Source: Candidatus Endomicrobiellum agilis
GTDB taxonomy: Bacteria; Elusimicrobiota; Endomicrobiia; Endomicrobiales; Endomicrobiaceae
DNA length: 64,000 nucleotides
Direction of reading: 5' to 3'
Assembly: GCA_020328155.1 (NCBI GenBank)
Contig: JAIXMX010000001.1
Location: forward strand, 1 to 64,000
The notes under the pieces were generated by a model. The model was not told the DNA's origin and searched no databases. It was given only the letters and a program-made list of their open reading frames with translations. This document shows positions 5,296 to 64,000 of this stretch, piece by piece (the first letter of the stretch is position 1; each line of letters begins with the position of its first letter). A program made the translations under genes and the position numbers.

Positions 5296-7560
5296 ATGCC
5301 ATTAAAACAAATTGATAAAATAGAAGTTTCTAAGGAAAAAACTACAAAGAGGAAAGTTGCATCGTCGGCTAAGAAAACCTTAAAAAAGGGTAAAGACGAT
5401 AGTGTTGCAGCTGCTAAGAAAACGGCTAAGACTAAGCCTAAGAAAACAAGAACAAAATCTGTTAAGACAAAAGGGGTAAAAGCTGATTCTGTTAAAAAGA
5501 AAACCGTTAGAAAAATTGTTAAGAAAGTTGTTTCTGAGGAAAAAGAGAAACAGGAAATACACAAACTTGAAGATGATAAAGGTGTTAAAGAGAAAAACGA
5601 TTCCAAAACCTTTGTAGAAGACGAAAGAACGGAAGAAAAATCTGAGGCAAAAAAAATACAAGAAACTGCTGTTTTGCCATCTCCGTCGTCTCATGATGTA
5701 ACAACCATAGAGCAAAAACCGGTAGTACAGGAACAGACTGTTCTAAAGACTGAGAAACCAAACGCTGCGTCAAAGTCGGTAGAAGCTAACACAGAATCCG
5801 TTAAAGATAAATATAAAGGGATAATTTTAATAAATGAGTTGATAACCGTAAGGGAACTTGCCGAGAAAATGAAGCTCAAGGTTGGCGATGTTTTAAAGAA
5901 ACTTCTCTCTTTGGGGAGTCTTGCTACTATAAACCAAAGACTTGACATTGACACAGCTGTTCTTTTGACTAATGAGTTCGGTTACGATACGGAGTTTGTG
6001 TCAATTTATTCTGATGAAAAGGTAAGTGCTGAAAAGGAAGATCCTTCAAAATTGAAGGCGCGTCCGCCGGTCGTTACGATTATGGGTCACGTTGACCACG
6101 GTAAAACTTCTCTTCTTGACACAATAAGAAATAGTAACATTGTTGCGGGTGAACACGGTGGCATTACGCAGCATATCGGAGCGTACAAAATAAAAGCACC
6201 AGGCGGGAAATATATTGTGTTTTTGGATACTCCCGGTCATGAGATTTTTACAGCAATGCGTTCTAGAGGATCACAAGCTACTGATATAGTTGTGCTTGTT
6301 GTCTCCGCAGCTGATGGTGTAATGCCGCAAACAATTGAAGCCATAAACCATGCCAAAGCCGCGAATGTGCCTATTATAGTTGCCATAAATAAGATAGATT
6401 TGCCTGTTTCGGATTCGAAAAAAGTAAGACAGGAATTAAGCAATTATGGTCTTGTGCCTGAGGAATGGGGCGGCGATACAATAATGATTGATATTTCTGC
6501 AAAACAAAAAACCAACATTAATTTGTTATTGGAAATGATTTTACTCAAAGCTGAGATGATGGATCTCAAGGCAAATCCTGATAAAAAAGCTGAAGGAATA
6601 GTTGTTGAGGCGAAACTCGATTCTCGCAGAGGTCCGGTAACGACGCTTTTGGTTCAAGGCGGGACTTTGAGAATTGTTGATAATTTGGTTATAGGAACGA
6701 CTTACGGTAAAGTAAGAGCGATGATTGATGATTGTGGGAAGAGATTTGATGAAGCTCTTCCGAGCACTCCGGTGGAAATTTTAGGACTGAACGAGCCTCC
6801 GCAGGCAGGTGATAGATTTATTGTGGTCGATCATGAATCGCAAGCAAGAGAAATTGCACAGTCAAGAAAAGAAAAAGCTAAAGAAGCTTCTTTAAAACCA
6901 AGACGTCACTTATCACTTGTTGATATAAGTTTGGGACAAGTAAAGGATTTGAAGATAATATTGAAAGCAGATGTTCAGGGTTCTTTAGGAGCGTTGAGCG
7001 ATGCTTTGGAAAGACTTTCAACTTCTGAAATAAATTTGAAAATAGTACATAGAGGTGCGGGTGCAATTACAGAATCAGATATTGCTTTAGCCGTTGCTTC
7101 AGATGCTTTAGTGATTGGTTTTAACTTACGTCCCGATGCCGCAGTTGAAAAACTTGCGGAAGCAGAAGGGGTAAACATAAGTGTTTATAGAATTATTTAT
7201 GATTTAATTGCAGACGTTAAAGCTGCTATGGAAGGCTTGCTTGCTCCTGATATGAAAGAAAAAGTACTCGGCAGAGCTGTTGTAAAGCAGGTATTCAGAC
7301 TGTCAAGCTATGGGATTATTTCAGGATGTTCTGTCATCGACGGGAAAATACAAAGAGCTGCAAGGATAAGGCTTTTGAGAGATAACATCATTGTTTTTGA
7401 GGGGAATATTTCTTCGTTAAAAAGATTCAAAGCCGATGCCAAAGAAGTTGAAAAAGGCTATGAGTGTGGAATCGGTCTTGAAAACTTTTCTGATATAAAA
7501 CCCGGTGACATAATTGAGAATTTTACTATGGAGAAATTTGCAAGAAAGCTAGATAGTTAA
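5296..7560 (+). CDS. infB: translation initiation factor IF-2
   Basis: GHVDHGKTSLLD, DTPGHE, NKID GTPase motifs; Lys-rich N-terminus. Confidence 0.98.
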   Translation: MPLKQIDKIEVSKEKTTKRKVASSAKKTLKKGKDDSVAAAKKTAKTKPKKTRTKSVKTKGVKADSVKKKTVRKIVKKVVSEEKEKQEIHKLEDDKGVKEKNDSKTFVEDERTEEKSEAKKIQETAVLPSPSSHDVTTIEQKPVVQEQTVLKTEKPNAASKSVEANTESVKDKYKGIILINELITVRELAEKMKLKVGDVLKKLLSLGSLATINQRLDIDTAVLLTNEFGYDTEFVSIYSDEKVSAEKEDPSKLKARPPVVTIMGHVDHGKTSLLDTIRNSNIVAGEHGGITQHIGAYKIKAPGGKYIVFLDTPGHEIFTAMRSRGSQATDIVVLVVSAADGVMPQTIEAINHAKAANVPIIVAINKIDLPVSDSKKVRQELSNYGLVPEEWGGDTIMIDISAKQKTNINLLLEMILLKAEMMDLKANPDKKAEGIVVEAKLDSRRGPVTTLLVQGGTLRIVDNLVIGTTYGKVRAMIDDCGKRFDEALPSTPVEILGLNEPPQAGDRFIVVDHESQAREIAQSRKEKAKEASLKPRRHLSLVDISLGQVKDLKIILKADVQGSLGALSDALERLSTSEINLKIVHRGAGAITESDIALAVASDALVIGFNLRPDAAVEKLAEAEGVNISVYRIIYDLIADVKAAMEGLLAPDMKEKVLGRAVVKQVFRLSSYGIISGCSVIDGKIQRAARIRLLRDNIIVFEGNISSLKRFKADAKEVEKGYECGIGLENFSDIKPGDIIENFTMEKFARKLDS

Positions 7561-7937
7561 TAAAAATGACAAGTTGGAACACAAGCCATGCAATGATATG
7601 ACGTTTCTCTTTAATTTTCATCTTTATGTTTAGCTGTGGATATTTAAATTCTCCTCTTTAATTTAGTGTTAAAGTGTATACGCTAAAGGAAGGTTACGAC
7701 AGTAGAAATCTGCAATATCGGCTTTATTTTGTGTCAAGTATTCATCATCGTCACTAAAAGCTTGATATAAAGCATCGTTCTAAATCTAGTGAGAAGTTTC
7801 ATTCATAATTTTTAAGTGATGATTCCTTATCAATTGTACATAGTCTTTTAATTCAAGTATTTTGCCATTAAAATGCACAATAAAAGGGACAGGCTCTGAA
7901 ATCAAGTTCGAAGTAATAAACCTAGAAGGAAGTTAAT

Positions 7938-8291
7938 ATGCCATTATCGTATAAAAGATATGTCAGAGTAGGTGAGCTTATACATCGGACTGTGTCGTCA
8001 ATCGTAATGAAGATGAAAGGTTTGGACGAAGGAGTTGTTACGGTTATGAGTGTCAACCTTACAGACGATTTGTTAAGTTGTAAAATTTATTATTCCGTTT
8101 TAGGTTCTGAAGAAGATAAGAAAAAAGCAGATATAGTTTTAAAGAAGAATACAAAAGAGGTAAGACATCAACTGGCTTTGCATTTAAATTTAAGACGTAC
8201 TCCGACAATATCTTTTATTTATGATGATACCAATGAAAAAGCTACAAAAGTATTTGATATACTCAAAAAAATAGAAGAAGAAAAAAAATAG
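7938..8291 (+). CDS. rbfA: ribosome-binding factor A
   Basis: RVGELIHRTVSSIV...VRHQLALHLNLRRTPTISFIYDD; position after infB. Confidence 0.95.
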   Translation: MPLSYKRYVRVGELIHRTVSSIVMKMKGLDEGVVTVMSVNLTDDLLSCKIYYSVLGSEEDKKKADIVLKKNTKEVRHQLALHLNLRRTPTISFIYDDTNEKATKVFDILKKIEEEKK

Positions 8292-8417
8292 TGATATCTT
8301 TTGAGTTTGTGTGTGCAAATAATTGTTTCGATATACGTACGTCAGTAAGGACTGTGCGTTTAATTACAGATATGTAAATAAATTTGTAAAGAAAAAATTG
8401 AATACTTTGACTCATTT

Positions 8418-9428
8418 ATGGGGAGAGAAATGTCGTTGCGTATGAATTTAAATAAGAACGATTTGAAGAAAATTTCAGAAATCTCCAAAATAATCAAACA
8501 ATCAAAAACATTCTTTATTGCCGGTCATATGAAACCAGATGGCGACAGTCTCGGTTCAGCTTTGGCTCTTGCGTCTGTTTTAAATAGACTAGGTAAGAAA
8601 GCATGTGTTTACTGTGCTGACAAGGTACCAGATTTTTTAAGATTTCTTAAGGGTTCAAGTGAAATAAAAAAGTCAGCAAAGAAAGCTGACATATTTGATT
8701 GTGCGATAATTTTAGAATCGATTAATTTTTCAAGAATGGGTGATATAATTACTCCGGGTCAATCAAAAAAAGTAATCAATATAGACCATCATTTAACTTA
8801 TACTGATTTCGGAACTGTAAATTATATTGTTCCATCTTCATCGTCAACCGCAGAACTCATATTGAATATTTTAGAATATATGAAAATTAAACTTACTAAA
8901 AGCGAAGCTGAGAATCTTTATACGGGCATATTGACTGATACGGGTCGTTTCCAACAGATAAACACTACTTCTAATTCGCATATTGCTTGTGTAAAACTTA
9001 TGGAGTATGGCATAAACATAAATGAAATTTATAGAAAAGTTTATGAAAATAGTTCTATCAACGCTTTAAAGTTAGAGGGAATTGCTTTATGCGGAATAAA
9101 AACGATTTTTAATAATAGCGTTTCTTATGTTGTTTTAACAAGAGATATGTTTAAGAAAAGCGGTGCAAGAGATGGTGACGATAATGGCATAGTAAATTAT
9201 ACTTTAAGAATAAAAGGCGTAAAAGTCGGCTGTCTTTTCAAAGAAGTAGATAAGAAAATCACAAAAATAAGCTGTCGTTCAGTGAACACTTTTAATGTTT
9301 TAGAAATTGTGTGCAGGTTTGGAGGCGGTGGCCATAAAAATGCCGCAGGATGTACTATTAAAGAGGGAATAAATGCTTCAATCAAGATGATAAGCAGCGT
9401 TTTAAAAGAGAAGCTTATGGGCGGTTAA
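8418..9428 (+). CDS. nrnA: DHH-family bifunctional oligoribonuclease/PAP phosphatase NrnA
   Basis: GHMKPDGDSLGSALAL, IDHH, C-terminal GGGGHKNAAGC (DHHA1). Confidence 0.93.
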   Translation: MGREMSLRMNLNKNDLKKISEISKIIKQSKTFFIAGHMKPDGDSLGSALALASVLNRLGKKACVYCADKVPDFLRFLKGSSEIKKSAKKADIFDCAIILESINFSRMGDIITPGQSKKVINIDHHLTYTDFGTVNYIVPSSSSTAELILNILEYMKIKLTKSEAENLYTGILTDTGRFQQINTTSNSHIACVKLMEYGININEIYRKVYENSSINALKLEGIALCGIKTIFNNSVSYVVLTRDMFKKSGARDGDDNGIVNYTLRIKGVKVGCLFKEVDKKITKISCRSVNTFNVLEIVCRFGGGGHKNAAGCTIKEGINASIKMISSVLKEKLMGG

Positions 9429-9429
9429 C

Positions 9430-10115
9430 ACGTACAAGCGTATTGTGCTGTGACAGTTTTTCTGTATATTTGTATGTTTTGTCTAGATTGTTCACCAGAC
9501 GGTGTTTTTGTTTTTTACAAAGTAGGTGAGATTTTGGAGGATTCGGTCGGTGCTGTGTATGTTTGTATGAGTTAATCAGTTATGTCTCGAAGCTATAATA
9601 ATTTGACGTGTAAACCATAAGAATATTATTTTGTTTGAAGTTGTCCAATAAAAAAGTAGAATAAAAATAGTTTTAAACGTTAAGTCGTCGGAGTATGCGG
9701 TGCTTTAGATATTGATATTACAAGATTTTTACTTACTTTGGTAGGCAAAACGATAAATTCGTGAAAAGAGATAAGAGATAAGATTTGTTTAAGTTTCTTT
9801 CTGCTGGGTAAAATTATTTAGATAAAAATGTAGTTTCCAAAAAAGGCATTTCAAATATGAGAATATATAAAAAAATAGTTAAAATATTTGGAGATAAAGT
9901 TTCTCAGGCTTTTCAGCGGAACTTACATAAAAACTTTAGCGCAGGAGTTTGGAAGTATTTTAGAGTGCGACATAACAGTTAAGACTTTGAAAAGAGAAAG
10001 AATAGATATATTTGCTTTGAGACTTAAAGATACGGGCAGTGCTAGTAAAATAATTGAGAAATTGATACCCTCGTTTAGAATTGCTCTAATTCTGGTTTAC
10101 CGTTACTACAAATAA
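9430..10115 (+). pseudogene. truB: decayed tRNA pseudouridine(55) synthase
   Basis: Only a C-terminal remnant is legible (9888-10115: FSGTYIKTLAQEFGSILECDITVKTLKRERIDIFALRLKD, TruB SGTYIRTLA...L.RT..G.F pattern); lies between nrnA and ribF, the usual truB slot. Confidence 0.75.
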
Positions 10116-12172: not shown

Positions 12173-12379
12173 ATGGTCAATGTTAAAGTGCGCGAAGGCG
12201 AGTCTATTGAAGAAGCTATAAGACGTTTTAAAAGAGAGTGTGAAAGAAACGGAGTAATGCAAGAAATAAAGAAACGTGAATTTTACAAGACTCCGAGCGT
12301 TTTGAAAAAAGAAAGACTTGCAGAAACAAAAAGGAAAATCCGTCGCAAAATGGTTAAAGATAGTAGATGGTCAAAGTAA
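12173..12379 (+). CDS. rpsU: 30S ribosomal protein S21
   Basis: VKVREGESIEEAIRRFKRECERNGVMQEIKKREFYKTPS. Confidence 0.96.
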   Translation: MVNVKVREGESIEEAIRRFKRECERNGVMQEIKKREFYKTPSVLKKERLAETKRKIRRKMVKDSRWSK

Positions 12380-12390
12380 TTGAAAATAAG

Positions 12391-12437
12391 AAGGGAGTTA
12401 TGTTTAGATGTATTGACGACATACGACTCCCTTTTAT
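12391..12437 (+). terminator. Rho-independent terminator after rpsU
   Basis: AAGGGAGT (12391-12398) ... ACTCCCTT (12426-12433) then T-rich tail. Confidence 0.65.
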
Positions 12438-12453
12438 TTTGAGGCTATGAAAA

Positions 12454-13413
12454 ATGAAATTAAAGGACATACATAAATTATTTATAAAGGAAGGGATTAA
12501 GACAGATCCAAGGGGCATAAATATTGTTAAGCTGGATTTATCGAAGCGCAAAGAAGAATATGATGCTCTTTCAGGTAAAAAGAAAGAGAATTACGATATG
12601 GAAAGTCTTACAAACCCTTATTATGATTCAAGAATTCTTTACGGTGATGAAAATACCGAAGTTAGAACTGTTATGGTCGGTATAGACATAGAAAGTCAAG
12701 AGCTTTTACTTGCAAAACAGCTTATGAACTCAGGTATTGAAATTGATTTGGTCATAGCACATCATCCTGAGGGGTATGCCTATTCAACGTTTTACAGTGT
12801 TTTGGAAATGCAAGCAGATATTTTAAATAAGCAGGGTATTCCGATAAATGTTGCCGAAAAAATTGTTTCCCAAAAAATGAAAGAGGTACAGAGGAGTGTG
12901 CTTCCTCAGAATAATGAAAGAGTTTATGATGCTGCAAAGCTTTTAGGTGTACCTCTTATGACTGCGCACAGTGTTGCGGACAACCATGTGACTGCGTTTT
13001 TACAAAATGAAATCAATGCTTTAAATCCAGTATATTTGAAAGAGATTGTGGAACTGTTAAATAAGTATCCTGAATATCAGCATGCGTCAAAGGTTGGGCA
13101 TGCGCCGTTTATTTTAAACGGGAGTGATTATTCGCGTTGCGGAAAAGTTTTTGTTGATATGACAGGCGGCACGGAAGGTCCTCTCGAATCTTTTGAAGGG
13201 CTTAAAGCTGCGGGAGTTGGAACAATTATTTCAATGCATTTGAGCACCAGAGCAGTTAAGGAAGCGGAGAAACATTATTTAAATGTTGTTTTGGCAGGAC
13301 ATATTTCATCTGATAATTTGGGTTTAAATCTGCTTTTTGACAAATTAGAAAGCGAAGCTCCTGAAAAATTTGAATTTATAGAGTGTTCGGGTTTCAGAAG
13401 GTTCAGAAGGTAA
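12454..13413 (+). CDS. Nif3-like dinuclear metal center family protein
   Basis: VMVGIDIESQELLLAKQLMNSGIEIDLVIAHHPEG; C-terminal H/E region. Confidence 0.75.
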   Translation: MKLKDIHKLFIKEGIKTDPRGINIVKLDLSKRKEEYDALSGKKKENYDMESLTNPYYDSRILYGDENTEVRTVMVGIDIESQELLLAKQLMNSGIEIDLVIAHHPEGYAYSTFYSVLEMQADILNKQGIPINVAEKIVSQKMKEVQRSVLPQNNERVYDAAKLLGVPLMTAHSVADNHVTAFLQNEINALNPVYLKEIVELLNKYPEYQHASKVGHAPFILNGSDYSRCGKVFVDMTGGTEGPLESFEGLKAAGVGTIISMHLSTRAVKEAEKHYLNVVLAGHISSDNLGLNLLFDKLESEAPEKFEFIECSGFRRFRR

Positions 13414-13415
13414 GA

Positions 13416-15218
13416 ATGTCAATATCTGAAGATACGATTGAGAGAATAAAACTTTCCAACGGCATAGAGTCTGTAGTAATGGAATATTTGCCGGACTTAA
13501 AAAGAGCAGGGCGCAACTGGAAGGCGTGTTGTCCGTTTCACAGTGAAAAAACGCCGTCTTTTGTAGTGAGTCCTGAAAAAGGAATTTTCAAATGCTTCGG
13601 CTGCGATGCTGTGGGCGATGTTTTTAAGTTTGTAATGCTTGCTGACAGTATATCATGGATTGAAGCGGTAAAAAAACTTGCCGCAAAGGCAAATATAGAA
13701 ATTCAAGAAACAAAACAAGATATAATAAAAACATCTGAAAAGACGAAACTGTTTGGCATTTTAGAAAATTCGGCTATATATTATCATAGATGTTTGCTTG
13801 AAAGTTCAAGTGCCAGAAAAGCGAGAGAATATCTTGAAAAACGTGGTGTAAGTCGCGAAACGGTAAATAAGTTTAAACTTGGGTTTTCTCCTAAAGGCCA
13901 GTTTTTGGAATCAGCTTTAAAAGAGGGTTATGTGAGTGATGATCTTTTAAAAGCGGGATTGATAGCAAAAATGGAGAATGGAAATTTTTTTGAATACATG
14001 TCGGACAGAATAGTTTTTCCAATTTTTGACGTTCAGGGGAGAATTGTGGCGTTCGGCGGAAGAACTATTGCAGATCATGAGGTTAAATACTTAAATAGTC
14101 CTGAAACTGTTATTTATTCAAAATCGTCAAATCTTTACGGGTTATTTCAGACTTTGCCTGAAATTCGGAAAGAAAGAAAAATGATTATTCTTGAAGGATA
14201 TATGGATGTTGTTATTCCGCAGCAGTTTGGTATAACGGGTGCAGTCGCGACGCTTGGGACTTCGTTTAATCAATATCATGCGAAGTTGATTTCAAGGTAT
14301 TCCGACAGTGTCATCTTGCTTTTTGATTCTGATAATGCTGGAAGAGCTGCTGCGCAAAGATCTCTTGAAATTCTCGCCGAAAGCGGAATAGAGTGCAGAG
14401 TGTCCGCTTTACCTGAGCATGTTGATGCTGACGAGTATCTCAACCGATATGGAAAGGAAAGCTTTTTAAAGCTTCTTAAAGACAGTTCTAAGAGTGCGAT
14501 AGATTTCATGATTGCAAGAGTGTGCGGAGGTTTATCTTCGGACGGGAAAAAAAGTTCGCCCGAAATGAAAGCAAATGCTGTATCTACTCTTTTGGGTTTT
14601 ATTTCAAGAAGTTCCAATTCTATAATTCAGACAGAGTGGGTAAAATGTGTGGCGCAGCATATTGGTGTTAACGAGGAAGCAGTTTGGATAGAGTTTGAGA
14701 AAAAGCAGCGTTTAAAACTCAAGGGTTATTTGCAAGTTGATAAGGGTTTAGATGAACAAGTTGTTGCAGATAAAAAAGTTTCAATGTCTTTGGAAGAAAA
14801 TCTTTTAAATCTTATTTTAAACAACAGAGATTGTATTGAAGAAATTAACCTGGATTGTTTTGAAGACGCGAGATGTAAAAAAGTTTTCGAACTTATAACT
14901 TCGGGATCGAGTGACTCCGAAATATTAAATGTCTTGCCAGAAGAAGACGGAAATTGGTTTGCAGAATTGACATTGAACAAAATAAAATACAATGACGTTA
15001 AAGAGGCTTTAAGTATCATTTTAAAAGATATCAAAATAGACAGACTTGAAAGAAGAAGACAGCAGCTTAAAAAAGAAATTCTTTTGATGGAGACAGGTGA
15101 GAAAGAAATAAATAAAAATGTATTTAATGAATATAAAGAATTGACAATTTTTTTAAAGGGATCGAGGAAATTAAATGGTGAAAAAAGGTTTGTTTCAGGA
15201 TTTGATCGACACCGGTAA
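13416..15218 (+). CDS. dnaG: DNA primase
   Basis: Zinc finger CCPFHSEKTPSFVVSPEKGIFKCFGC; FGGRTI; ILEGYMDVV TOPRIM motif. Likely start is the internal Met at 13416. Confidence 0.97.
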   Translation: MSISEDTIERIKLSNGIESVVMEYLPDLKRAGRNWKACCPFHSEKTPSFVVSPEKGIFKCFGCDAVGDVFKFVMLADSISWIEAVKKLAAKANIEIQETKQDIIKTSEKTKLFGILENSAIYYHRCLLESSSARKAREYLEKRGVSRETVNKFKLGFSPKGQFLESALKEGYVSDDLLKAGLIAKMENGNFFEYMSDRIVFPIFDVQGRIVAFGGRTIADHEVKYLNSPETVIYSKSSNLYGLFQTLPEIRKERKMIILEGYMDVVIPQQFGITGAVATLGTSFNQYHAKLISRYSDSVILLFDSDNAGRAAAQRSLEILAESGIECRVSALPEHVDADEYLNRYGKESFLKLLKDSSKSAIDFMIARVCGGLSSDGKKSSPEMKANAVSTLLGFISRSSNSIIQTEWVKCVAQHIGVNEEAVWIEFEKKQRLKLKGYLQVDKGLDEQVVADKKVSMSLEENLLNLILNNRDCIEEINLDCFEDARCKKVFELITSGSSDSEILNVLPEEDGNWFAELTLNKIKYNDVKEALSIILKDIKIDRLERRRQQLKKEILLMETGEKEINKNVFNEYKELTIFLKGSRKLNGEKRFVSGFDRHR

Positions 15219-50351: not shown

Positions 50352-53119
50352 CTAGTAGGGGTTCTCTAGAAAAGAAAAATCTTCATAAGTATACCAATAT
50401 TTCTTATATTTTTCTCCTATGGAACTGATATCATCATTATAAAATCTTAAATCAAATTTAATATTTAGTCCTTTATATGGGGGAATGTTGGAATTGAGGA
50501 GCAATTCTTTAAAATCGTCAATCTTGTTCTCATAATCGGTATGACTTGTTCCTTTAGGATCTATGAAGATAATTTTGTAATCGTTTTCTTTTTTAACCCA
50601 AAAGATAAAATCGGGAAAAAAGTTTCTGTATCTGTTATCTTTTCTGTAGAAATACGGTACTCCAATTTTGTCCAAAGTTTCATCTCTGCTGATACGCTTT
50701 CTCGATTTATATATTTCTCAAGAGCCTTAATAAATTTCACTTCGCTCTCATTTACTATTATATGGTTTATATAATCCATTTTCTCTGTTCTTGAATAAAT
50801 TAACGGCAAATAATAATGTTTCGCTATATTTTTTATTTTTAATTCTTTAAATTCAGCCTCATTCTTTTTGCCTGTTTTTACATTTTCAATTTCTGAGTTT
50901 AACAATTCAACATCTTCAGTTTCTAGATTAGATATTTTTATATGCTTAAAATGTATTATTTCGTCTTCAAGTTCTTTAAATCCGTAAAACGTTTTATTTT
51001 TTATATCGGTGTGAGAAATCAATTTGCCAAGCAAAAAATCCATATCATTGTAGGCATTATCCTCTTTTATTTGAAAAGAATTATCGTCATCAATTTGCTT
51101 AAGTAAAAGATTGAGATTTTCTAAAGATATATCGTGCTTTAGCAATAAAAGGTTTTTATTGAAATTTTTAATATATTTTCTAATGTTTTTTAATGTAGCC
51201 TTTGAAAGATTAAACTTTGCAAAATTCTCTCTTGTCGTTTCTTCCTTATATACGGGAATATATAATTCAAAAGGCTTTTTGTTTTTAAGGATATCTTTTA
51301 ACTCTTTGTCTTTTGTTTTCTGCTCTTTAATTGTTTCAACAATACTAATTATAGAATCTTTATCGGTTGCAAAAATAAATAGTGTTTCTAAAAGTATATT
51401 TTTATTATTATCATTTTCGGGTAATCTCTTTCTTTTGCCTTTTTCAGGCTCTATTCTAACGCCTCGTCCTATGCTTTGTAAAACAAACTTTTTAGCCTTT
51501 TTTCCGCCGATGTTTATCATATTTATTACATTCGGTCTATTACTATCCCAACCCTCATAAAAACTGCGACTTCCGAGCAAAAGATTTATGTCCTCATTTT
51601 CATTTATCCCTTGAAATATAGTCTTTTTTTCAGGAGAGGTTACACATTGATAATTATCGCCCAATTTTTCCCTTTGAAATTTTTTAGCATCGCCTATTTT
51701 AATAAGCGCAAACGGTTTATCTGTTGTTTGTAATTTTAATACTATTTCTTTTTCCTGTTCGCCTTCCAAAAGTTCAAATTTGCCGTGCTTCTTAGCATTA
51801 AAAATATTTTCTAACAAATCTTTAAGAGTAATTTTGTCAAATAGCTCTATATCAAAAGAAAGTTCTTCTTGTCCCAATATATATTTTTTATTGTTTAATA
51901 ATTCCTGTTCAAACTCGTCTTTTGCATTATCAAAAATTTGAGGTTCGATATTGCCGATTGCTATCTCTTCTATTTTCTTAAAAAATAAAAGTAAGTCAGA
52001 ATCGTCTGTATTTATTGAATTTACCAGAGTTATAAGCATAGGATTGTGGTAATATCCTTGTTTTTTTGATTTCTTAATTAAAGTAAAAGCAAGTAAAGAT
52101 TTTAAGACTTGTTTTTGTTTTTCTATTTCGCTTAATTCATCTGATTCGCTTGTAAGATTAAAATAAGTATGGCTTAAATATAAGTTTTTTCCGTATCCTT
52201 GCGAAATAAATTTTTCAAGATTAAAATTAAAGCAAGTAGTCGAATAGTCGATGTCTTCTGTGAAAGTTGCAGAGAAATTGAATAAAAATCCGTTTCTTGA
52301 TAGAACAGAAACATAATTTTGCATTGAAGAATTTTCTTTTTCACCGCGATGCGCTTCGTCCAAAAATATATACCAATTTCCTTTGTTATCGTAATTTCTG
52401 TAATCCAAAATGCTTTCCTTGCATTCATCTCTTAACAAATCGCTTCTATAATAATAAACCTTTGTGAAACAGTCATAATTAAAACTCTGTTTATCATCCT
52501 CATAGTTTATGAGATTTATAAGTTCAATTTTTCTTTCTCTGCTTTTGTTGAATCCTTCTATTTCTATTTTAAACTGTTTTATCAAGTCTTCTCTCGGAAG
52601 CAGTAGCATTATTTCTTTTTTTGGGATAAGACTTTGTTTCTGTAAATGATCTAAAAGTTCAATAGTTTTTATCAAAACAATACTTTTTCCAGAACCTGTC
52701 GACATCCAAAAACTCGCCCTGTTTAAAAAAGCGGCGTCTGTAACGTATTCTTCAGCTCCTTCTCCTAAAACTTTATAATCTTTTGAATAGTTTTGAAAAA
52801 ACTTAAATCTACTGCTTACATTGCCTATGCTTTTATCTTTTTTATTGTTTGTAAATTTATATATAGCAAAAGCTTTGTCTTTAAGTCCGTTTTCTTTATA
52901 TTTTATATGAAGAGTTTGTTTATCAGGATTTGCATTGCCGTTTTGAAAAGTTTTAAAAGATAAATAAAGCGCTTTTGTTATATTTTTAAGTGCTTCTTTT
53001 TGATATGGAAAATCATTTAAATTTTTATTTTCAGAAAAGCAAGAAATACTCGGAAATCGCCAATTATTCAATTGGTCATAATCTATTTGCTCTAAAATCT
53101 TTTCAAGAATGCTTTTCAT
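50352..53119 (-). pseudogene. res: type III restriction enzyme Res subunit, frameshifted before the nuclease domain
   Basis: MSTGSGKSIVLIKTIELL, DEAHRGEK, SATF helicase motifs in the 852-aa ORF; C-terminal nuclease part NFFPDFIFWVKKENDYKIIFIDPKGTSHTDYENKIDDFKELL is in another frame (ORF 50352-50675). Confidence 0.85.
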
Positions 53120-53137: not shown

Positions 53138-55384
53138 TTATTTATGATCTTTTACTGCTTCGACTAACGAGTCATAGTGCGTTTTGTCGTTTTCTTTTAC
53201 GGCTTCTATTATAATATTAACGATATAAGCACATTCGGATAAATCAAGAAATGCTATTAAGTTAATTGAACCATGACTATGACTATTCATAAATTTTTTT
53301 ACTCTTTCACACTTAATCTTGTCAGGAATCAAAATTTTGATACTTTCCATAATATTTTTATGAGACAAATGTTTAAATTTCAAATATGTCTCAACAAACC
53401 TTCTTAAGACATTAGGCAAGTAATATAAATATTTAAAAGTATCTTTTGGCTCGTTATGAAATTCATTTATCAATGAGAATAAATAAACATATTCAGACTT
53501 ATATTTCTTAATCAGACCATCGCTTTCAGTTAATTTAGATTCGTCAAGATATGAATTTTTTATTCTTTTTATTAAATAATAACTTTGCATTTCTTTTTTG
53601 AATTGTTTTTCATTAAACCAATCGCAAACTAAACTATAAAATTCAATATTATGAGTTGAGATAAATAACTGCTTGCACTTGCATTCGCCAATATATTCAT
53701 TTTTATTGTCTTGCGGATCTCTTTTGCACTCATAAAACATATTTTTTATAAAAGAATAAATATTGAATAAATGATTTGAATCCAAACTTGAGACCGGGTC
53801 GTCAATATAAACTATTGTATCAGCTATATTGTTATCTTGTTCTTCAAGTTTCGCCGCAAAATAGGCAAATGAAATTGCTGTTTTCTCTCCTTCGCTTAAA
53901 TTCTTTGCTGTTTCTGTTCCACGAACCAACTTAAATTTTTTATCATCTGTTGCTTCAATCTTAATATCGTCTTTTTCAAAAAATATTTTTAAGTATTCAT
54001 TTACTTTTTCAGCGCCTTTAGTGCTTTCATCTAACTGTTCTTTTATTTTACTGATTTCTTTTTTTTGTATTGCTATATCTTTCTCAATATTTGTTTGTTC
54101 ATTTTCTAACTGCGTCTGCCTTTCAGAGTACTTTTCATCCTTTTCAAACTCTGCTGCAAAATGCTTTTTCAATTTTTCAATTGCGGCGTCTTTCTCTCTT
54201 TCAAAATTATCTGTTCTATCATTATTTTTGCTTATGATAGCGTTGAAGTCTGCTAAAGCTTTTTCTAATTCCTTTGTGTTATTTACAAACTGAGTAACTT
54301 CTAATTTATCAAAAGGTTTTTCTTGCTTTGTTTTCAAATTGCCAATTAATGAATCTACGGCATTGTTAAAATTGCGAATTTCTTTTTCAAGAACAGGTTT
54401 GGCTTGTTTAAATTCTGGGCGAATATCTGTGTAAAAAGCAATTTCTATTTGCAAAGGATTTAAATTTATTTTAAAGGCATTTAACTCTTTCAACAGTTTT
54501 TCGATATCGTCTTTTAACAGCTCATAATCTTTAGAAAAGTATTCATTTAATTTAGGCAGTAAATCTATCGGCAGCGGATTGCCGCAAAATTCGCAAACTG
54601 TTTTATTCTCATGTAATTTTTTGCCTGTTTCTACCCAATTGCTAATTTGTGGATTTTTAAGTAACTTCTCAATTTTTTTAGAAACTGCCTGCCGGTGTAA
54701 TTTTTCTTCAACTTTTTCTTTTAGTATTTCCAGATTTTCAATATCAATATTAAATGTTATTTGGTCAATACGTGGTTTTTGTTCTGTTGATAACGCTTGT
54801 GTTTTATGTTTATCAATATCATCTGGAATTAAAATATATTTATCAAGATCATTTTTTATCTTTTCAATAGTTCGTTTTAATTTATCTATGTTAAAACTTC
54901 TTCCTAAATTTAGTATATTTGTAATTTCTCTTGCTTTATCTGTAGCCGCTTTATTTTTTTGTTTCTGTTCTTTTTGTAGTTTTTCAAGTTCTTCTTTATC
55001 TTTTGCTGATATTTCTTCTTTTTCTCTTAACTCTGTTTGTAGTTTAATATTTTCTTCGCCTAATATAAGTATAGGTTCAATATTTTCTGCATCCCATTTT
55101 AGGTTTTCTTTTATGAAATCAGAATTGAAAACGCGAATATTTGGTTTTGTTAAAAAATTATTATCGTACTTTGTCTCTGGTGTTTCGAGTTCAAATTCTG
55201 CGGATGGGTAATCAGGATGCTTTTCGCCTTTTTCTAAACATCTAAACACTCTTGAAAGCATAGTTTTGCCTGAATAGTTCCAGCCGTAAATAAGATTAAA
55301 TTCCTTAAATTCCGGGATTGTGACATCATTTTCAAAGTTTTTAAAAACCCCGAAATTTTTTATTTTGTTTATTTTAGTGATCAT
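53138..55384 (-). CDS. AAA ATPase, RloC/PrrC-like anticodon nuclease
   Basis: GWNYSGKTMLSRVFRCLEKG Walker A; LSEGEKTAISFAYFAAKL signature; YIDDPVSSLDSNHL Walker B; mid-coiled-coil CEFCG (CxxC zinc-hook-like); C-terminal RRFVE...SHSHG. Confidence 0.8.
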   Translation of the reverse strand: MITKINKIKNFGVFKNFENDVTIPEFKEFNLIYGWNYSGKTMLSRVFRCLEKGEKHPDYPSAEFELETPETKYDNNFLTKPNIRVFNSDFIKENLKWDAENIEPILILGEENIKLQTELREKEEISAKDKEELEKLQKEQKQKNKAATDKAREITNILNLGRSFNIDKLKRTIEKIKNDLDKYILIPDDIDKHKTQALSTEQKPRIDQITFNIDIENLEILKEKVEEKLHRQAVSKKIEKLLKNPQISNWVETGKKLHENKTVCEFCGNPLPIDLLPKLNEYFSKDYELLKDDIEKLLKELNAFKINLNPLQIEIAFYTDIRPEFKQAKPVLEKEIRNFNNAVDSLIGNLKTKQEKPFDKLEVTQFVNNTKELEKALADFNAIISKNNDRTDNFEREKDAAIEKLKKHFAAEFEKDEKYSERQTQLENEQTNIEKDIAIQKKEISKIKEQLDESTKGAEKVNEYLKIFFEKDDIKIEATDDKKFKLVRGTETAKNLSEGEKTAISFAYFAAKLEEQDNNIADTIVYIDDPVSSLDSNHLFNIYSFIKNMFYECKRDPQDNKNEYIGECKCKQLFISTHNIEFYSLVCDWFNEKQFKKEMQSYYLIKRIKNSYLDESKLTESDGLIKKYKSEYVYLFSLINEFHNEPKDTFKYLYYLPNVLRRFVETYLKFKHLSHKNIMESIKILIPDKIKCERVKKFMNSHSHGSINLIAFLDLSECAYIVNIIIEAVKENDKTHYDSLVEAVKDHK

Positions 55385-55408: not shown

Positions 55409-58003
55409 CTATTTGCCCCACCAAAGTAAAGGTTTTAACAGTCTTATGAATTCAATCTTTTCAGAATTCGCCATATTTTTGTAATCAGTTTTTATCTCTT
55501 TGCTTTCGCCGTCTAATAATACGCCTGTTTTAGTTATTCTCTTTATAGGTAATCCCTTAAGATTAGATATTGTTTTTGCGAAATCTATGTCTTTGTATAG
55601 TTTGTCAAAATCAACTTCCAAAATTTCGTTTTCTGCGCTTAATACATCGGCAAATTTTTGGTCTGCTTTAAAAATATAAGTTTCAAACGGATTTTTATTA
55701 TCCCACAGATTGGATGGAGTATTATTTGAATACTTCATATTTCTTAGAGTATTTTCGTATTGTTCTAAAGAGTAATACTTAAAAAATTGAGAAACTCCTT
55801 TACCTTTTTCCCTTATTCCATTTTTCCAACAATCAGAAAAAATAATTTTCTTTATTCTCGGAATGATAATAGTATCAATGTGTGCGTCTAATTCAATAAT
55901 AATATATTTTCTATCACCATCGTCTTCTTTATTTGCGTTTATTATAGCCTCTGCTGTAGTTCCAGAGCCGCCAAAATAATCTAAATAAATTCCAGTAGGG
56001 TTAAACATTGAAAGGAATTGCTTTATTGTATTTATACTTTTAGGAGTTTCGAACTTACTGTGTCCTAAAATGTCTTTTAGATATGAACTTCCATATTGGG
56101 GATTTGAGAATATAACATCGTCCCATAGGGTTTTTGGTATTTCTACATCAAAAGATGGCGTATAAATAATATTATTTTTGACAATATAAGTTTCTTTCTC
56201 TTCTTTTACTCTCTCAAATGTTCTATGCCAAACTACTTTTTCACCTCTCTGATTTATAGGTAAAACAAAAGAAAACCCTGACTTTTCATATTTATTTTTC
56301 AGATTTTCTACGAAGACGTCGTTAAAGCAGCGATATTCTCTGTTATAAATTTTGCTATATTCTTCATCTGTTATCATATATATTTTATTATCTTTAATGA
56401 GTATTGGATAATATCTATTTGGTCTTTCTTCTCTTTTCGAGTTTGTTCCGCCTCTTTTCAACGGAAAAGGCTTTTTTTCATTATTTTTTTTAACGGACAA
56501 TTTATCAATGCTTTCTAAATTCTTTGAGTGCAGTACATGGAATTCTATTGTTTTGGAAATTTTATCAGCGACTCTTCCTTGAGGATTGCATTTTGTTACA
56601 ATGGTTGTGATGTAGTTATTTTTGCCGAATACATCATCCTGCAAAGCTGTTAAATATCTTAACTCAATATCGTCAATAGATGTTATATTTATTCCATTGT
56701 CTTTCAGTAACTTCTTAGATAACTCCATTCTATTATGAATAATAGTTAGCCATGATGAGTCCTTATAATTATTAATATATATTATGGGAGATGAATTTGT
56801 ATTGTAAGGCGGGTCGATATAAATACACTGTATTTTTTCTTTGTATTTTTCTTGTAAAGTATTAAGAGCCTGATAGTTCTCGCTGTGTATTAGCCTGCCG
56901 TCTAATGTTTCGTCTAAATTATCAAATAAGTCTAAAATATCTAATTCTAAATTTTTGAAATGTTTTGTGTCTATCGGCAAATATTTATGCGCTTCTGATC
57001 TTTCGGAAAAACTGAAACTATTGTCTATCATTCCTAACTCTCGCCATTCTTTTATCTGCTCTTTGAGGTTTGGATGTTCTGATAATTTGTTTATTATTTC
57101 ATTCGTTAGCTTATCAAGGGTTATAACATAACTGCTGTTTAATACAAATTTAGGCTTGTTCCAAATTCGGACAAGTTCATCCTCAAATTGCGCTATAAAA
57201 CTGATAATTTTTTTAGCAAATACTTTAATTGTTTTTAGTTGATTAAGCCTTTCTTGGTCAAATTTATTTTCTGTGCTTAATAAGATTTGATGTAAGTATA
57301 AATCTAACTGCTCGTTCAAAAACGCGTTGGCGTTTTTATTTATAAAGAAATCCACTTCCGATTGTTTTTTAAATACGGCAAAAGCTTTTTCTAGAACATC
57401 TTCTTTGATTTTAAGCTGTCTGCTTATTTCTGAAATCTTTGTCTTTTTGCCGCTTTCAGAGTAACTAACATTAAAAATGTAGGCTTTTTTGCCGTCTTTT
57501 TCTAGCGTTTTTTCAAAGTCAAAAAACAGATTTTTCTTTTCGTTATTTTGTTTGTTTTTAAGAGTTCCGACATTAAAACGAAAGTTATAAGTCAGCCCAT
57601 CTGATTCGTCCGGTATTTCCGCCGAAATATCTTGAAATAGGATATCACTTTTCACATAGTAAAGCATGCGGCTTTTCCAAAATAAGATTACGTCTTTATT
57701 GTCCGTGTATATCTGCTCATATACTCTTTGCCAATTATTCGTTTTTACAAAATAGACACTTCCGCTTTCAGAAAAGTATTTTTCAAAAAAAGAATACAGT
57801 TTGTCAAAAAATTCTTCTTTAAATGAGTCTTTAATAATACCGCTTTCTTCATTTACATCTTTTTTAAACTGATCAAGAATAAGTTTATAGTAAGAAGATT
57901 TTATTTTTAAGAGATTTATATATCCGCTGTCGCCTTCTATTTTTGCTCCTGTAAAAATATTCTCTAACGCCTGATAAAATTTCGTTTCATTAATATTTTG
58001 CAT
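55409..58003 (-). CDS. mod: type III DNA methyltransferase Mod subunit (beta-class N6-adenine MTase)
   Basis: YIDPPYNTNSSPIIY (DPPY) precedes YLDYFGGSGTTAEAIINANKEDDGDRKYIIIE (FxGxG). Confidence 0.95.
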   Translation of the reverse strand: MQNINETKFYQALENIFTGAKIEGDSGYINLLKIKSSYYKLILDQFKKDVNEESGIIKDSFKEEFFDKLYSFFEKYFSESGSVYFVKTNNWQRVYEQIYTDNKDVILFWKSRMLYYVKSDILFQDISAEIPDESDGLTYNFRFNVGTLKNKQNNEKKNLFFDFEKTLEKDGKKAYIFNVSYSESGKKTKISEISRQLKIKEDVLEKAFAVFKKQSEVDFFINKNANAFLNEQLDLYLHQILLSTENKFDQERLNQLKTIKVFAKKIISFIAQFEDELVRIWNKPKFVLNSSYVITLDKLTNEIINKLSEHPNLKEQIKEWRELGMIDNSFSFSERSEAHKYLPIDTKHFKNLELDILDLFDNLDETLDGRLIHSENYQALNTLQEKYKEKIQCIYIDPPYNTNSSPIIYINNYKDSSWLTIIHNRMELSKKLLKDNGINITSIDDIELRYLTALQDDVFGKNNYITTIVTKCNPQGRVADKISKTIEFHVLHSKNLESIDKLSVKKNNEKKPFPLKRGGTNSKREERPNRYYPILIKDNKIYMITDEEYSKIYNREYRCFNDVFVENLKNKYEKSGFSFVLPINQRGEKVVWHRTFERVKEEKETYIVKNNIIYTPSFDVEIPKTLWDDVIFSNPQYGSSYLKDILGHSKFETPKSINTIKQFLSMFNPTGIYLDYFGGSGTTAEAIINANKEDDGDRKYIIIELDAHIDTIIIPRIKKIIFSDCWKNGIREKGKGVSQFFKYYSLEQYENTLRNMKYSNNTPSNLWDNKNPFETYIFKADQKFADVLSAENEILEVDFDKLYKDIDFAKTISNLKGLPIKRITKTGVLLDGESKEIKTDYKNMANSEKIEFIRLLKPLLWWGK

Positions 58004-58745: not shown

Positions 58746-59041
58746 TTAATAAGCCACAGGGATTACATCTAATGTATAGCCTAGCGGTTGCAATATCTTA
58801 AAAAGAGCGTCAATCTGCGGAGCAGTTTTCATATTTCCTAATTTTGCTATAGCTGATTGTTTTACTCCTGTACTATCTGCGAGCTTTTTTTGAGTTAATC
58901 CCTTTTTTCTCTTGTTTCAATAAGTTTGCCTATAAAAGCAACCTCAAAATTTATACGTCTTTTTGCGTCGGATGTAAAAAGTTTTGGATCGCTCCATATA
59001 TAGTTAAGAGTTGTACATTTTATATTATTTATCTTTTTCAT
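58746..59041 (-). pseudogene. HTH antitoxin (HigA/XRE-like), frameshifted
   Basis: MKKINNIKCTTLNYIWSDPKLFTSDAKRRINFEVAFIGKLIETREKRD* then, shifted, GLTQKKLADSTGVKQSAIAKLGNMKTAPQIDALFKILQPLGYTLDVIPVAY*; break in GAGAAAAAAGGGA. Confidence 0.8.
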
Positions 59042-59427
59042 ATTTTTAGTTCTCTCTTTTTAAAAAATCTGTCAGATTGTGTCTCGCTTTTTCTATGTCT
59101 CTTAGCGGTGTTTTTTTTCATTTTCTTAATAAAATGGTGTAGTAAAACGTATATATTTTTTTGCCAATAGAAGAAAAATATTCTATTTTTCAGCGGTCTC
59201 AGCTCCCATAATTTTCCATCAATATGTTTTACTATCGGTGCTTTTGCTCTTGTTCCATATTTTTCCAAGACTTTTACATAAACTATTATTTTTTCAGCAT
59301 TAATTTTGTCGATTTTACTTGTTTCTCCTCTTTTAAATAAATCATAAATATAATCCTTGAGAAATTCTCTTCCATTTTTATCTTTATAAAAGATAATTTC
59401 ATGCATGCTAAATTTATCCCTGTACAT
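59038..59427 (-). CDS. RelE/HigB-type (phage-derived Gp49-like) toxin, C-terminus frameshifted
   Basis: HEIIFYKDKNGREFLKDYIYDL...KAPIVKHIDGKLWELRPLKNRIFFFYWQKNIYVLLHHFIKK; beyond an A8 run the other frame reads KKTPLRDIEKARHNLTDFLKREN, the expected family C-terminus. Confidence 0.8.
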   Translation of the reverse strand: MYRDKFSMHEIIFYKDKNGREFLKDYIYDLFKRGETSKIDKINAEKIIVYVKVLEKYGTRAKAPIVKHIDGKLWELRPLKNRIFFFYWQKNIYVLLHHFIKKMKKNTAKRHRKSETQSDRFFKKRELKI

Positions 59428-59806: not shown

Positions 59807-62800
59807 AGCTATTATATTTCATCAATTTTTACAAATCCAGAACAAGAAGATTACTTTATAATAAAATACCCTGATAATCTGCCTCCGCTGAAATATCCAA
59901 GTGAATTATCGGGGTTCATTATAGATTATCCTGATAATCCACATTTAATAAAAGAGGAAAACCCTAATAATGATACTATTATTACTCAAAGCAATAATGA
60001 CAGAGAAAAAATTTGGCAAGAATTTTTGCCTAAATTGCAAGCATGGAAAAAAGAGAAGCAAGATAGATTATTAATTGAGAGACTTTTTAATGATTTATAT
60101 AACCTCTCTATGCATAGAGATGAAAACTATGAGTTTATATTAGGACATGGGATAATGGCATGGAAAATATCTAAACAAATATCATTAAATCACCCTTTAG
60201 TAAGCATGGAGTTAAATGTTGGTTACGATTCTGAATCGAAAACAATTAGGATAAGTGCTGTTGATGGGAAAAGCTTTGTATTGGAAGATTTGGTTATTCA
60301 AAATTATGTCACAAATATATTGGAAATAAAAAACTTATTTTATAGTTTTGATTACGACATAGCTGAGAAAAGTTCATATATAAATTTTTTTGGACGTATT
60401 GTCAATATGTTTAGAGACCCAACAAATGGAAATATTGCTAATGCGAAATTAGTTGAGGATAAGCAAATAGACCCGTGTGAAATTGATCATGACTTAAAAT
60501 TAATTGATACATGGGGAATTTTTTATAGAAAAAGAAGACAAAGTGCAGAAATAAAAGATTCAGAAAACTACATCGAAAAGTTTAAAAGCGGCAATAAAAG
60601 CGATGATGGGAACAATGTAGGTGTTTTGAAAACTTTTTTACAGAAAGCATCAAATACTCGCAAAACCGCCGGAAAGCCACTAATTAGCGTAACACAGTTA
60701 CTGCAAAAACATGGCTTAGTACGCGATACCTATCCAGACAACAAATTTCTGCGGACTGCGGCAAATAGAGGCACAAAAATCCACGCTAATATTGCGAAAT
60801 GGGTGAACGGGATTGATGAGAAAGAGCCGGATGTTGATAGCTACTGTGCGGCGATTAAAAATGCGTTAAAAGATAAAATGGCCGACACTCATAAGTTCGC
60901 CGAATGGAGATTATGTGACGATATGATAGTTGGCACGGCTGATTTAATTTACGTCGATAAACAAGATGGCAAATGCATAATGGCAGATATCAAAACTGTG
61001 AAAAAGTCTGAGAAAAAGTCTGATTATCGGAGCGCAGCGTGGCAACTTAGCCTCTATAAGTATCTGTTTAATTTAAATGCGATTCCGTTAGGTCTAAAGC
61101 CTATTGATAAGCTTGAGGTGATAAGATTATATCCCGATGTCGATGGCATGCATTGCGAGCTAACAGATGTTTCAAGTTACGTGTCTGAGATAGATGTTAT
61201 GGAATTGCTGCGCGCTGAAAGAGAAGGCAGACAATGGACTGGAAATAAAATAACTGTAGCGAACGATGAACGTAAGCTAATTAATCTAGCAACGCGTACT
61301 GTGGATAATTTTTATCCTAGATCATATACTGAAATAGAGGTATTGCAAAATGATAAAATTTTGTTTCCTCTTCCTTTTAATGATGAACAGGTTAATATTC
61401 TAACAAAGTTAGAAGTTTCTGATAGCGTAATTGTTCAAGGACCGCCTGGCACAGGGAAAAGCCATACAATAGCTAATTTGATTTCACACTTTTTAGCTAT
61501 GGGCGATAGAGTTTTGGTGACTAGTCAAAAAGATCAAGCTTTAGACGTGTTACTTACAAAAATTCCTGAAGAGCTTAGAAATTTTTGTATACCGATTTTA
61601 TCGTCAGTTCCAGATGCCAAAAAAAAGATGAATAGTGTATTCTGTGGAATTACAGAAGCAATTAATTATCCTTCGCATGATTTAGCAAAAGACATTGAAG
61701 TCCTCAATTGTGAAATAAATGATGCAAAGAATAAGTTAATTGAAATGCAAGATAATATAAAAAAAGCTTCTAAAGGACAGCTAACTAAAATTAAACTTAA
61801 TGATGACAGCTATTTGCCAATGGTTGTTGCGCAAAAGCTTAAGGATGAGACAGATAAACATTCATGGCTTAAGGATAAGGTCGCGTATAACGTCGAGTAT
61901 GTCAGGGACAATATGGGCAATGATGTAAGTGTAGTAACACCTATACTTCCATTGGATAAATCTGAATTGAAGCGTTTGTCAGATTTGTCAGAACAGTTAA
62001 GAGGTTATTTAGATGATTTAAAAATAAAGAGACCTCAAATAAAATCTTTGATTACTCCTAAAGAATTTGAAGAATTATCAAGTAATTTATTGAAAATAAG
62101 AGATTTAGGTTCTCGATTGAATTCATTTAGTCCTGATTTAGTTATAAAAAGTTCAAAAATTGAAGATTTGGCTTCTTTTGCTACTTTATTAAGGAATAGA
62201 TTGGACAATGATAAGAACATAATATTAGAATGGCAAGAAAAGTTGTTGAAGATTATAAGTGATAAGAGAGAGCAAAAACAACTGCAAAGTATATTCTCAA
62301 AACTTTTAGAACAGAAAAGTAAGTTAGAAGAATTGAGAGGCAAATATGATTCCTTTAAGGATGTTATAATTAAAACTTCATTTGCGACTACAGAATTGAA
62401 AATTTTTTTATTTAAACAATTGGAAAAAGTTAGAGATAATAAGAATATTTATAGTTTTTTTAACAAAATATTTATGTCAAAACGAGAGAAAATGACTCTG
62501 AATAATATTTCAGTAGACGGCATAAAAGAGTTAGAAACAGAAAGCGACTGGCGTCAAACTATAGATTACATTGAAATGTTAGAACAATTGAATAATTTAT
62601 GTGTAACATGGAATAAGATAGCTAACAAATATTCTTTGCCGATTATAAATATTATAAATACGCCAAATACTGATAGAAATAAGTTTAAAGAATTTGAAGA
62701 TAGCTGTAAGGAAATATTACTGTCAATTTCATATATGGAAGCTGTATTACGAAATAAAAAGATACATGAGAAAATTAAAACTTTTTCAGGAAATATTTTA

Positions 62801-64000
62801 GAGAGAGCAGATTATGCATTAACTACTTGTCACATTGAGAGCATATTACAAGCGGTAGATTGTAAACTTGAACTTATGAGTAGTAAATCCCGGAATACTA
62901 AGGCTAAGGAAGAAGAGCTAAAAAACACAATATCTCAATATTTAAATGGTTATAAAGAGAATTTACAGATATTTAATTCCCTTTCCGCAGTTTATAATGG
63001 TCAGGAAAAAGCGATTTTAGATTATACTTCAGCGTACAATAAATTAAAAGATTTAGAGTCGTTAGAAGATAGGTATAAGGAATTTTGCGCTTTGTTGAAT
63101 AAATTGCAAGATAAAGCTCCTATATGGGCAGGGTTCTTTATACAAAACTTGTCATCCGGCGTAGTTTATCCTGAATATTGGGCTAAGACGTTTCAATATA
63201 AAGCGTGGGTGTCATACATTTCTGAAATTAATAAGTTAGCAAGAAGCTTAACGCGTCGGGAAAAAGAATTTGTTTCTCTGAATAAAAAATTGAGGAAACT
63301 AAAAGAGCAGTTGATACTGAAAACTGCATTTATGAATATTCAAAAAAGCACTACACGAGCAAATGTGATAGCACTTGAAGAATGGAAGATGGCTTTAAAA
63401 AGGTTACCAAAAGGAAAGTCTAAGTATGCATTTGAAAAGAGAAGACTGCTGCAAGCGGCCACACAAAAAGCCAAAAACGCTATACCTGTTTGGATTATGC
63501 AATTGCATAAAGTATCAGAAACAATTCCTTCTGAAGTGGGCATTTTTGACGTCGTAATTATTGATGAAGCAAGTCAAAGCGATATTAGAGCTTTTTTGGC
63601 TCTGGTAAGAGGTAAAAAAGTAATAGTTGTAGGAGATCCAGAACAAGTAAGTCCGCTTAATATTGGAATTGATGTAATGCAAATTCAAAATAAAATAAAA
63701 GAACATCTTGCTGATATTCCAGCTAGCAATTATTATGATTTAAAAACAAGTATATATGACATTGCAAAGTTGATTCTTGGTGGCAATAGCGAGTTGATGT
63801 TGAAAGAACATTTTAGGTGCTTGCCAGAGATTATTAAGTTTAGTAATGATTTATGTTATGACGGAAAGATTATCCCTTTGAGATATGAGAATCCCAATAA
63901 AAAACTAACACCGGTTTTAGAGACTGTGTATGTACAAAAAGGCATAAGGAGAGATGATGTTAATATAAATGAAATGGAGGCAGAGATTATATGTTCAAAA
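59795..64000 (+). CDS. SF1 (DNA2/UPF1-like AAA_11/AAA_12) helicase with internal RecB-like PD-(D/E)XK nuclease domain; partial, runs off window end
   Basis: Uninterrupted frame of about 1400 codons read by eye: RGTKIHANIAKW...FAEWRLCDDMIVGTADLIYVDKQDGKCIMADIKT...[71 protein letters not shown]. First in-frame ATG at 60110. Confidence 0.88.

Follow-up and report, generated by a model that had tools for sequence, protein, structure and literature searches.

What does an RloC-like gene do in the middle of a type III restriction-modification (R-M) operon, and does it depend on its R-M neighbours? The question is raised by the first 64,000 nucleotides of contig JAIXMX010000001.1 of Candidatus Endomicrobiellum agilis (assembly GCA_020328155.1), here called the window. 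A first-pass annotation, made from the sequence alone, had read one open reading frame of the window as an RloC-like anticodon nuclease that would act as a fail-safe when restriction fails.

RloC has been defined by a length of 658-897 amino acids, ABC ATPase motifs, a CXXC-bearing coiled coil and the pattern R-x3-E-x36-52-H, in which a serine often precedes the histidine (Davidov and Kaufmann 2008, PMC2610378). In the RloC of Geobacillus kaustophilus the residues R692, E696 and H737 are each required for tRNA cleavage (PMC2610378). That RloC can be linked to type I or type III R-M is itself already known. It was reported in 2008 for 8 of 73 cases, one of them a type III system with ArdC, and in the type I hsd loci of Campylobacter the rlo (restriction-linked) ORFs, rloC included, are inserted among the R-M genes (PMC2610378).

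Results

Identity of the protein encoded between mod and res

The product of rloC (Table 1) matches the Pfam family AAA_13 over residues 11-718 with 475.6 bits (cut-off 36) and the PADLOC candidate family PDC-S06 from end to end (residues 1-743, 539 bits). The PrrC model of PADLOC gives a weaker match (residues 430-716, 57 bits), and the match to LmuB is also weak. With 748 residues the protein lies within the published size range of RloC. Judged by these matches and by the residue invariance described below, the ORF is an RloC-family protein, as the first-pass annotation had proposed. That annotation had also placed CEFC at exactly the bases where we find it. The ABC-type ATPase motifs it had named are all located, and the histidine that it expected 37-39 residues after R-x3-E is present in the arrangement R661-x3-E665-x38-H704, with S703 before the histidine.

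Table 1. Features of the mod-rloC-res operon in the window.
Feature	Position	Strand	Description
mod	55409-58003	-	864-aa type III DNA methyltransferase; open frame, transcribed first in the operon; PADLOC MTase_III PDLC03638 609 bits, N6_N4_Mtase 68 bits
rloC	53138-55384	-	748-aa RloC-family ABC-ATPase/putative anticodon nuclease; ATG start, without internal stop
Walker A, GWNYSGKT	residues 34-41, 55262-55285	-	G34, G39 and K40 invariant in the 47-sequence alignment
Zinc-hook CxxC, CEFC	residues 264-267, 54584-54595	-	C264 and C267 invariant (47/47)
ABC signature, LSEGEK	residues 496-501, 53882-53899	-	key ABC residues invariant in the 47-sequence alignment
Walker B/D-loop, YIDDPVSS	residues 526-533, 53786-53809	-	key ABC residues invariant in the 47-sequence alignment
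Switch His	H578 of RloC	-	completes the ABC ATPase motif set
RRFVE	residues 661-665, 53390-53404	-	R661 at 53402-53404, E665 at 53390-53392
SHSHG	residues 701-705, 53270-53284	-	conserved His is the second, H704, at 53273-53275
res	50561-53119	-	type III restriction subunit with an intact helicase part; its final residues are out of frame; ResIII 54 bits
res 3' end, out of frame	50352-50675	-	likely PD-(D/E)xK motif FFPDFIFW...IIFIDPKG; in frame in the G022 orthologue

The window RloC was aligned with 46 relatives, all from named genomes and together spanning many phyla. R661 and H704 are present in all 47 sequences and S703 in 46; E665 is a glutamate in 44 and an aspartate in three. The spacing between the acidic residue and the histidine varies from 35 to 47 residues and the protein length from 731 to 804 residues. 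The triad is also retained in both orthologues of the genus (genomes G022 and G043, see below). An unmatched C-terminus or poorly conserved R/E/H residues had been named beforehand as signs against the assignment; neither was seen, the triad being kept throughout the alignment. Shuffling the last 200 residues of the window RloC yields R-x3-E-x36-52-SH in 176 of 10,000 cases (1.8%), and about 10% of the whole-protein shuffles contain CxxC. Because chance produces the motifs this often, they are weak evidence when taken alone, and we accept the triad and the hook as real because of the full-length family match and the invariance in 47 sequences.

An AlphaFold2 model of the protein (pLDDT 86) places CEFC between two long helical stretches, and in the PDB its fold comes closest to Rad50, SMC/cohesin and Lamassu SMC-like chains. 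When the C-terminal domain was modelled by itself (pLDDT 90), Foldseek gave no significant fold match in the PDB (best E = 0.47); the top hits include HEPN toxins, all with E > 0.4. Sequence searches of the PDB with the protein and with its profile did not find a solved structure of RloC or PrrC. A scan of the genome contigs with a single RloC sequence gave no matches.

The window protein agrees with the RloC proteins of G. kaustophilus and Acinetobacter baylyi in architecture, size, zinc hook, ABC motifs and the R-x3-E-x36-52-(S)H triad. The rloC gene of G. kaustophilus adjoins an hsdR relic, whereas the gene described here sits between mod and res. The Campylobacter rlo genes likewise lie between R-M genes, which are of type I there and of type III here. 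PrrC of E. coli, encoded in the type Ic prr locus, shares the ABC ATPase, the triad and the embedding in an R-M operon, but it is about half the size, has neither hook nor coiled coil and goes together with type I R-M. A PrrC would have 341-416 residues, no hook and linkage to type I hsd genes; the window protein has 748 residues, a CxxC insert and type III neighbours. Two plasmid candidates for PrrC were rejected, since the genes that contain the short matches measure 1989 and 2223 bp, longer than a PrrC gene would be. Lamassu LmuB, Rad50 and SMC heads share with the RloC model the fold of the ATPase and coiled coil; none of them, LmuB included, is known to have an anticodon-nuclease R/E/H triad.

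The operon and the frameshift in res

The three genes are transcribed from one strand in the order mod-rloC-res, with gaps of 24 bp (mod-rloC) and 18 bp (rloC-res), so that the position within a type III operon is as first annotated. The disruption of the reading frame near the 3' end of res had been overlooked. The Mod translation carries DPPY and FGGSG. Res is 85% identical over residues 1-822 to an open orthologue of 924 residues, yet compared with both related genomes 19 bp are missing around positions 50684-50695. The reading frame breaks just upstream of FFPDFIFW...IIFIDPKG, and the helicase part and the likely nuclease motif of the window res are not in a single frame. From the res sequence, restriction is probably already dead at this locus, and the loss of the nuclease appears to be recent. 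Within 50612-50623 lies a T6 tract (heptamer T TTT TTC as read in the res frame) at which a -1 slip would lead back into the nuclease frame. We keep the slip as a caveat to the frame loss; it is not a special adaptation, since G022 has the tract too, and the residues just upstream would stay wrong.

Mod differs within the genus. In the G022 orthologue residues of about 405-700, the target-recognition part, are replaced while both ends are highly similar, and G043 has the window version. This replacement suggests a swap of DNA specificity.

Related loci and selection

Both related genomes have the locus KefB-radSAM-[res-rloC-mod]. In G022 res is open (924 aa) and 53 bp are missing close to the start of rloC; in G043 all three genes are broken, rloC by several breaks. 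Since neither related genome with the orthologue has kept it whole, rloC is dispensable in the genus. Contig C16 of G022 carries a second mod-rloC-res operon, fully open and from another type III family. The same operon is found in G043 (contig C1, at 37 kb), where mod and res are broken and RloC is open (778 aa). The window RloC is only 28% identical to this second clade as against 58-59% to an RloC from a Bacteroidetes metagenome genome, which argues for at least two entries into mod-res operons. The sequences thus indicate at least two captures of RloC into a mod-res gap within the genus, the operons concerned being unrelated, which is possibly a new observation.

Pairwise dN/dS of rloC (0.36-0.38) exceeds the values of mod (0.19-0.22), res (0.25-0.27) and the flanking genes radSAM and kefB (0.12-0.14). 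By a simple parsimony count on three sequences, which is rough, the branch dN/dS of rloC is 0.30 in the window lineage (54 synonymous and 70 nonsynonymous changes) and 0.45 and 0.42 in the two lineages with a broken rloC. The window rloC is open and under purifying selection. At synonymous sites the operon has diverged about half as much as its flanks, a hint that it has been exchanged within the genus.

Genome surroundings

The window genome, probably that of an endosymbiont of the termite gut, comprises 1.29 Mb in 23 contigs, and the genus has many genomes of 0.2-1.4 Mb. R-M systems are abundant in the trichonymphae symbiont (PMC11257099), and the window genome gives more than 10 methyltransferase matches. 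It contains a second type III mod/res pair (L264, contig C18, 642-5215), which is open with nothing between the genes. A distant AAA_13 paralogue of 774 residues on C18 (L023) lies near a SIR2-like and HerA-like pair and a Mod fragment (7189-9513, 12218-15023), which may form a small defence island. C17 (L024) and C23 (L025) carry broken remains of other AAA_13 genes. Within the window, a Gp49/HigB-like toxin ORF (59038-59427, minus strand) is followed by an XRE-type antitoxin that seems to be divided between two frames (58898-59059 and 58749-58916). A helicase-like ORF (60026-64000, plus strand) with a TTG start encodes at least 1325 residues and continues past the window end.

Contents of the mod-res gap

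At 78 named RloC loci, R-M families are the commonest neighbours on the same strand, mostly of type I (upstream and downstream: N6_Mtase 12, Methylase_S 9 and 2, HsdM_N 8, ResIII 5 and 7, HSDR_N 2 and 5). Beside the four plasmid relatives of RloC that were opened we found no R-M genes. Among the loci read, we found RloC strictly between mod and res only in loci of the window genus. A scan of viral contigs returned many relatives of RloC and none of Mod.

The gap itself has varied contents, which is possibly new as well. In the Mod/Res family of the window it holds RloC (three loci of the genus), an M78 peptidase with DUF4411 (G183) or Bro-N (G190). A Rhodothermus marinus plasmid of this family (L148, 9013-16148) has a SMODS nucleotidyltransferase (CD-NTase) and Cap15, that is, a CBASS pair, in the gap; in an Athalassotoga plasmid the gap is empty. 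For a second Mod/Res family, 12 of 18 further loci of the phylum carry gap genes and six do not, including the second type III system of the window genome; these tallies are raw counts, some of the loci are related and two were placed by methylase coordinates. The genes found at these 12 loci include an OLD-like ATPase, Schlafen (SLFN) AlbA_2, DUF4062, AAA_21 with DUF4276, RhuM, DUF1016 and others; RloC, too, occupies the gap in this family.

Discussion

Most probably, this reduced Endomicrobiales genome carries an RloC-family anticodon nuclease as the central gene of a type III R-M operon, mod-rloC-res, and the protein acts in the way of the characterised RloC proteins. By analogy with these, the Rad50-like ATPase heads on the zinc-hooked coiled coil would sense broken or linear DNA, of phage or host, during phage attack. 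The C-terminal R/E/H domain would then cut host tRNA at the anticodon loop, a cleavage activity which we infer for the window protein from its characterised relatives. Translation would stop and the infected cell would make no phage. Where the operon is whole, restriction by the type III enzyme could form the first line and RloC the second, and the type III cuts might also supply DNA ends that RloC could sense. The window genome would now be left with Mod and an open, still conserved RloC.

The tight operon position could also suggest an arrangement like that of PrrC, in which the Mod/Res complex keeps RloC silent until phage anti-restriction factors release it. This is the fail-safe of the first-pass annotation. 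PrrC with EcoprrI is a precedent for an anticodon nuclease held by an R-M enzyme (PMC12707154), and Mod with a truncated Res could still act. Nothing in the sequence supports such a function, however: rloC is open in the window despite the truncated res, and at the second operon of G043 it is open beside a broken mod and a broken res, although a toxin strictly silenced by Res should be the first to go. The R-M protein of AbaRloC neither silences nor activates it (PMC3874168). A fail-safe of this kind is not needed either, since the published RloC has its own internal DNA-break switch and operates in R-M-deficient cells (PMC3874168). We therefore regard silencing by Mod and Res as improbable; because open RloC copies adjoin a broken res or mod, self-control of RloC fits better. 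Thus, of the first reading, the RloC family and the placement between mod and res stand and the fail-safe function is unsupported.

The same breaks raise the question whether the operon is simply decaying into a pseudogene as the symbiont genome shrinks, with rloC still open by a chance of timing. The frameshifts in the window res and in the G022 rloC, the three broken genes of G043 and a dN/dS of rloC above that of radSAM and kefB would all fit a decaying relic. On the other hand, the dN/dS on the window branch is well below the value of 1 for a gene free of constraint, and every catalytic and hook residue is retained in the window RloC. We thus think decay unlikely, though it deserves more weight than silencing by the R-M enzyme. 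Very unlikely, in our view, is an SMC-like defence ATPase that acts other than by tRNA cleavage, for example as a DNA clamp like Lamassu LmuB. The best fold matches, the weak LmuB match and PDB searches that yielded no PrrC or RloC structure to match would be consistent with it. Against it stands the R/E/H triad, of which each residue, when mutated, abolishes tRNA cleavage by G. kaustophilus RloC (PMC2610378) and which is kept in the window protein.

For the operon as a whole we tentatively propose that in type III systems the mod-res gap serves as a cargo slot in which unrelated, mostly abortive-infection-like modules are swapped, an interchangeable second-line effector beside the R-M enzyme. 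We rate this as possible rather than probable, and the pattern is a lead and not a result.

In summary, the locus is a clear case of an RloC built into a type III operon. The genus offers natural variants, with res broken and rloC whole and the reverse, from which it can be learned whether RloC depends on its R-M neighbours at all. Should the mod-res gap prove to be a general cargo slot, new abortive-infection genes could be sought there in a simple way.
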